This document shows positions 459-998 of a DNA stretch of 64,000 bases, in pieces; positions within the stretch are counted from its first letter, which is position 1; every line of letters begins with the position of its first letter. Under the pieces are notes generated by a model that saw only the letters and a list, made by a program, of their open reading frames with translations, made no database searches and was not told the origin of the DNA. Location of the stretch: contig JAWQFJ010017573.1 of the NCBI GenBank assembly GCA_034096865.1, forward strand, positions 241,001 through 305,000, in the 5' to 3' direction. The DNA is from Theodoxus fluviatilis. Its lineage: Eukaryota; Mollusca; Gastropoda; Cycloneritida; Neritidae. The translations under genes and the position numbers were made by a program.

Positions 459-998
459 TGTACATGTTTCAGTTCTATGGAGTGATGGGGCTGGTGTATG
501 TTGGTTATGGCACAGCCTGGCTGGTGATGCTGGCCTGTCTGTGTTTCAGTTCTATGGAGTGATGGGGCTGGTGTATGTTGCCCATGGCACAGCCTGGCTG
601 GTGATGCTGGCCTGTACATGTTTCAGTTCTATGGAGTGATGGGGCTGGTGTACATTGGTTATGGCACAGCCTGGCTGGTGATGCTGGCCTGTACATGTTT
701 CAGTTCTATGGAGTGATGGGGCTGGTGTACATTGGTTATGGCACAGCCTGGCTGGTGATGCTGGCCTGTCTGTGTTTCAGTTCTATGGAGTGATGGGGCT
801 GGTGTATGTTGCCTATGGCACAGCCTGGCTGGTGATGCTGGCCTGTACATGTTTCAGTTCTATGGAGTGATGGGGCTGGTGTATGTTGGTTATGGCACAG
901 CCTGGCTGGTGATGCTGGCCTGTACATGTTTCAGTTCTATGGAGTGATGGGGCTGGTGTACATTGGTTATGGCATAGCCTGGCTGGTGATGCTGGCCT
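459..998 (+). repeat. seven-copy 77-bp tandem repeat of a splice acceptor and exon start
   Basis: Seven copies of a 77-bp unit follow one another. The exon-like part (TTCTATGGAGTGATGG) starts at 473, 550, 627, 704, 781, 858 and 935. Each unit carries an intron end (tttcag, usually preceded by tacatg or tctgtg) plus the first ~63 bp of a TMEM87 exon. Only the seventh copy runs on into the rest of the exon (CNWRDLLRVQFWIG, ending at 1055). Because 77 is not a multiple of three, reading from one copy into the next gives a TGA stop within nine codons (for example ending at 562). Confidence 0.92.

Follow-up and report, generated by a model that had tools for sequence, protein, structure and literature searches.

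Seven tandem copies of a TMEM87 splice acceptor in Theodoxus fluviatilis, a mirage of the kind described in amphioxus

The TMEM87 gene of the gastropod Theodoxus fluviatilis raises the question of which acceptor the spliceosome takes, and with what outcome, when the start of a single exon stands seven times in a row. The window analysed here is a stretch of 64,000 nucleotides (assembly GCA_034096865.1, contig JAWQFJ010017573.1, positions 241,001 to 305,000), and its first kilobase contains an array of seven gap-free 77-bp units without indels, delimited by Tandem Repeats Finder at 459-999 with a score of 956 (period 77, 7.0 copies, 93% matches and 0% indels). Each unit is formed by 14 nt of intron end, closing with TTTCAG and its acceptor AG, and by the first 63 nt of a TMEM87 exon, encoding FYGVMGLVYxxxGxAWLVMLA. 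The first exon bases of acceptors 1 to 7 are positions 473, 550, 627, 704, 781, 858 and 935. The first-pass annotation had described seven 77-bp units in a row, each made of a 3' splice site and about 63 bp of TMEM87 coding exon; this was borne out by the repeat finding and the unit alignment, and its acceptor positions coincide with the ones given here. The features of the locus are collected in Table 1.

Table 1. Features of the TMEM87 locus and its array (window positions, except for the preceding exon)
Feature	Position	Strand	Basis or remark
Preceding exon	L002:8133-8194 (end = C10222:239194)		gtaagt donor; ends WPLLI
Intron just upstream of the array	412..458	+	yTnAy branch-point-like TTTAT (-51), TTAAC (-44) and TTGAC (-24) before acceptor 1
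Array of 77-bp units	459..997; unit starts 459, 536, 613, 690, 767, 844, 921	+	Repeat finding and unit alignment
Units 1-6 with the 14-nt intron end of unit 7	459..934	+	Would be intron in the RNA upon splicing to acceptor 7
Intact TMEM87 exon (121 nt) with the exon part of unit 7, then gtgagt donor	935..1055	+	Frame runs on to the stop
TMEM87 exons, next four	2175-2237, 3483-3582, 6317-6410, 7302-7379	+	Intact frame; Pfam PF06814
TMEM87 exons, next four	11302-11410, 11691-11749, 12159-12262, 13019-13089	+	Intact frame; Pfam PF06814
TMEM87 exons, last three	13400-13476, 13780-13832, 14455-14527	+	Intact frame; Pfam PF06814

Any two units differ at 0-9 of their 77 positions and five distinct sequences are present among the seven, unit 1 being identical to unit 6 and unit 3 to unit 4. 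In units 2 and 5, CTG replaces ACA close to the splice site, linked to a Gly-to-Ala patch in the exon, and unit 7 carries one private change, ATA. The 9 variable sites of the 77 are clustered into 4 runs, for which random scatter gives a probability of 3e-4, so the changes arose largely as short multi-base patches. This variation bears on the reading of the array as an assembly artefact, in which a true single copy or some other number of units would have been inflated or collapsed. The array is known from one assembly only, and the draft-genome version of one haplotype of the amphioxus globin gene BflGb6 appears to be aberrantly assembled (PMC3087553). However, the stuttering of a single copy would hardly yield linked variants, and the five distinct sequences include the joint splice-site and Ala forms of units 2 and 5; the exact number of units could still be wrong, whereas an artefact as such is improbable.

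Against the unit consensus, the 77 bp flanking the array on each side show only 27/77 and 29/77 matching positions, so this is an array far above chance level with abrupt borders. Two bases, TG, stand at either end of the ancestral segment as read from the sequence, and may have served as the junction of the first duplication. A search of the array against the assembly gave one match, the array itself, by which a spread elsewhere in the genome is ruled out. A second search, with window positions 1-1400, scored 40 of 542 candidates and gave 42 matches, of which one is the query region itself and the other 41 lie within 108-374 or 1093-1400, none touching the array. Among these 41 matches to the flanks, 39 have 69-77% identity and two short pieces 83-84%. 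A second haplotype would be expected at the top rank and was not found among the 40 scored of 542 candidates. The intervals 108-374 and 1093-1400 are two further dispersed repeats that flank the array.

The gene carrying the array was identified as TMEM87 by Pfam (GOST_TM, PF06814, E 2.2e-82), and its product has 2062 protein relatives at E 0.001 or better. In the 120 listed of these the top ones are molluscan where named, with Octopus in first place (78% identity); the Octopus protein and that of Gigantopelta (77%) bear the name TMEM87A or TMEM87A-like, and that of Batillaria (73%) is annotated as hypothetical; the product of the source species is absent among the 120 (best identity 78%). In a FastTree phylogeny built from the query and 18 of these 120 proteins, each trimmed to the last 355 residues, the query falls with the four gastropods of the set (support 0.94), its position among them having a support of only 0.09. 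In the part from 935 onward the gene has 12 exons with proper borders and an intact open frame to a stop ending at 14527; this frame is entered from unit 7 only, in line with the earlier claim that just the last unit leads into an intact exon. The frame was read from exon L002:8133-8194 onward, exons upstream of L002:8133 being left out, and the WPLLI end of that exon resembles the residues before the same Phe in TMEM87 relatives. No second TMEM87 copy was found in the 965-Mb assembly (19,668 contigs), where 15/15 protein matches fell on the contig of the window, C10222. A pseudogene is ruled out by the 12 intact exons together with the finding of no other locus, and on these features the locus looks like a working gene.

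The introns of TMEM87 contain elements of their own. The intron at 7380-11301, which separates exon 7302-7379 from exon 11302-11410, starts with ATATCCTTTC and ends with CCTTGACTGAGGGTAC, and by the U12 consensus it resembles a U12-type AT-AC intron. It may be ancient, since a review reports a U12-type intron in TMEM87a and TMEM87b (PMC8329584). A dispersed repeat was identified by eye in TMEM87 introns at about 2440-3230, 7500-8180 and 10180-10900 and at about 5530-6365 of L002; it begins with GACTCACATGCGAAGCAAAAGTGAGTCTATGTACT in two places and is rich in GTCC runs and AAGGTCAAGGTCA motifs. Elsewhere in the window, minus-strand coding pieces at 22633-23193, 35930-36394 and 38116-38649 belong to a GCD14-family tRNA methyltransferase, presumably TRMT61A, and to CENP-K (Pfam E 1.4e-21 and 3.6e-36, respectively), the third piece (38116-38649) having an E of 3.8e-05, below the Pfam cut-off.

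To compute the outcomes of splicing, all seven acceptors were linked in turn to the upstream exon and onward to the later exons. The frame stays open through 12 exons down to the natural stop with acceptor 7 and with no other. From acceptors 1-6 the product always ends in ...CFSSME-stop, within the following unit and regardless of the number of extra units, and this stop lies upstream of the next exon junction by 108-493 nt. The first-pass annotation had made an exception for three or six extra units, which were thought able to stay open; their added length is a multiple of three, yet the frame has already ended and the exception does not hold. A tandem coding repeat is ruled out as well, given that 6/6 continuations across unit borders hit a stop. 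Transcripts with such premature stops are expected targets of nonsense-mediated decay.

The best explanation, which is considered likely on the present sequence, is that the upstream exon (ending at C10222:239194, L002:8194) would be joined to the last acceptor, at 935, to give the functional mRNA, with units 1-6 removed as tolerated intron and any splicing to acceptors 1-6 leading to a premature stop and, as expected, to decay. Acceptor 7 is likely used because it is the sole protein-giving acceptor of a gene with no second copy found. The array would be a tolerated by-product of a minisatellite-rich genome, with no regulatory task. Merged arrays with a period of at least 10 number 34 in the window and take up 14% of it; were their seed units placed at random, about 0.46 would be expected to cross an exon end of TMEM87, of which there are 24 in the window (including one stop codon, which is not a splice site). 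One array covering a TMEM87 exon end was observed and, because about 0.46 is expected by chance, it needs no special cause. Two large minisatellites are present at 59997-63381 and 32531-33710, one with a 21/42-bp unit repeated about 161/79 times and open in several frames, the other with a 47-bp unit repeated 25 times (97% matches).

Crude scans for splice sites and branch points do not single out acceptor 7 and slightly favour acceptor 1. The acceptor matrix, built from the 11 other acceptors of the gene, is weak (leave-one-out scores of true sites from -7.9 to 13.5); on it the seven array acceptors score 0.2-1.1, the best being acceptor 1 (1.1, against 0.2-0.3 for the others) and acceptor 7 scoring 0.3, and none is in the top 25 of the 153 AG sites of the stretch. 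The AGs located 10 nt inside the units score 3.0-3.4, above the array acceptors. A ranking of the seven acceptors by this own-gene matrix (11 sites) was rejected as too crude. As for branch points, acceptors 2-7 have no full match within 62 nt upstream to the yTnAy consensus, a match to it being no proof of use; shorter matches precede them, TGAT at -23 (6/6) and TTAT at -43 (4/6). Because only acceptor 1 has a full yTnAy and the marginally best score, a scanning spliceosome could favour it, an acceptor that yields no protein. Exon definition should favour a short exon beside a gtgagt donor, and the shortest exon (121 nt), beside such a donor, is the one given by acceptor 7.

The coding part of the units also varies. 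Exon residue 14 is Ile (ATA), a hydrophobic residue, in unit 7 only and Thr in units 1-6, while among the 120 listed of 2062 relatives it is Leu, Ile or Val in 113 and Thr in 1, an argument from one site and from relatives that are not independent. The His at residue 12 of unit 2 was identified in 0/120 of the listed relatives (of 2062). This pattern fits a relaxed protein-level constraint on units 1-6.

These signals also bear on a splicing rheostat, where the six decoy acceptors would capture a share of splicing and send it to a stop and decay, the number of units setting the TMEM87 output. All six earlier acceptors do give a stop that should trigger decay, and acceptor 1 has the best branch-point matches along with the marginally best score. 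Nevertheless, protein-level constraint looks relaxed in units 1-6, though this says little on splicing signals, and mirages, the tandem duplications of intron-exon boundaries known from amphioxus, are reported not to disturb splicing (PMC3087553, PMC3902484); the rheostat is regarded as unlikely. The first-pass annotation had suggested that the array could regulate transcript level or be kept harmless. Regulation is possible but unlikely, and harmlessness is the option closer to the reports on amphioxus genes of the same architecture (PMC3087553, PMC3902484).

Another alternative is an intron gain in progress, where a decoy unit would become a mini-exon by means of an inner donor spliced to a later acceptor, in the way described for potato RdRp (PMC4974935). 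In that gene, as here, a tandem duplication crosses the boundary of an intron and its following exon, and the potato case shows that new introns can originate in this way (PMC4974935). Within the exon part of the units, in-frame GT dinucleotides scoring above 0 are found at offsets 21 and 51 (all units) and 27 (units 1 and 6), and the best donor of the units is GGT|GTATGT at offset 23 of units 1, 2, 5 and 6, scoring 4.8. The best one is out of frame, however, the in-frame ones score 2.6 or less and the 11 donors of the gene itself score 6.5-10.6, a range flattered by a matrix built from those same donors. AGGT is absent from all seven units inspected. Whereas the new intron of potato RdRp took its donor from the duplicated exon part (PMC4974935), the TMEM87 units have no donor of comparable strength (4.8 vs 6.5-10.6), and an intron gain under way is highly improbable. 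The array bears nonetheless on how tandem duplications could start new introns. Taking both alternatives in their working form, a copy-number-dependent rheostat or a nascent intron, with decoys 1-6 and acceptor 1 in the lead diverting a share of pre-mRNA that depends on unit number into decay or mini-exon isoforms, is decidedly improbable. If it were true, variation of the unit number in populations would tune a conserved membrane protein, TMEM87.

The preferred reading, with protein made from the last acceptor and the remaining units tolerated, can be set beside other genes with repeated splice sites. Cuin and Porter reportedly described in 1995 a donor-site minisatellite of a human interferon-induced transcript, whose gene is said to be 6-16/IFI6. 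Both cases are minisatellites multiplying splice sites, but donors are multiplied in the human transcript and acceptors in TMEM87. Multiplication of a donor is ruled out here, as the units carry the 3' splice site and no donor within them is as strong as the gene's own. Internal tandem repeats are also found at human exon-intron boundaries and likewise represent minisatellite expansions; these belong to recent primate paralogs in segmental duplications (PMC2812944), unlike TMEM87, which is conserved and for which the assembly search found no second copy.

The array is a mirage, of the kind already described in amphioxus and here present in a mollusc. No mollusc mirage or splice-site minisatellite was found in print in the open-licence literature. 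The units are minisatellite-like and span the exon-intron boundary (14 nt of intron, 63 nt of exon), and unit 7 alone is the authentic boundary of an intact gene whose frame runs from L002:8133 on. The globin BflGb6 shares the acceptor-side form, its two haplotypes carrying six and three repeat units (PMC3087553), and the TMEM87 array has six extra units and the authentic one. Further amphioxus mirages are Adh3, troponin C and PGBD5 (PMC3087553, PMC3902484), the lancelet PGBD5 having repeats over both 5' and 3' splice sites (PMC3902484). Shared with these genes are the duplication of the 3' intron end and the 5' exon part beside one authentic boundary entering the transcript, and the many units with decoy splice signals. 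Some BflGb6 units are homogenised and the boundary units left out (PMC3087553); here units 1 and 6 and units 3 and 4 are identical and unit 7 has one private change, too few variants for this likeness to be judged. Unlike BflGb6, a lancelet gene with a unit of 150-160 bp, the array belongs to a mollusc TMEM87 and is known from the DNA of one assembly alone, and its 77-bp unit is also outside the 10-72 bp of the Adh3 mirage. RT-PCR of BflGb6 suggested that regular splicing is undisturbed (PMC3087553), and Adh and troponin C are cited as cases without aberrant mRNA (PMC3902484). As a conserved gene offers seven acceptors here that are nearly identical, and six of these run into the same stop, the locus is a clean natural test of 3' splice site choice by the spliceosome. 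The mirages of the cited papers are from lancelets, and the acceptor-side form in a mollusc suggests that mirages may originate wherever minisatellites are common.
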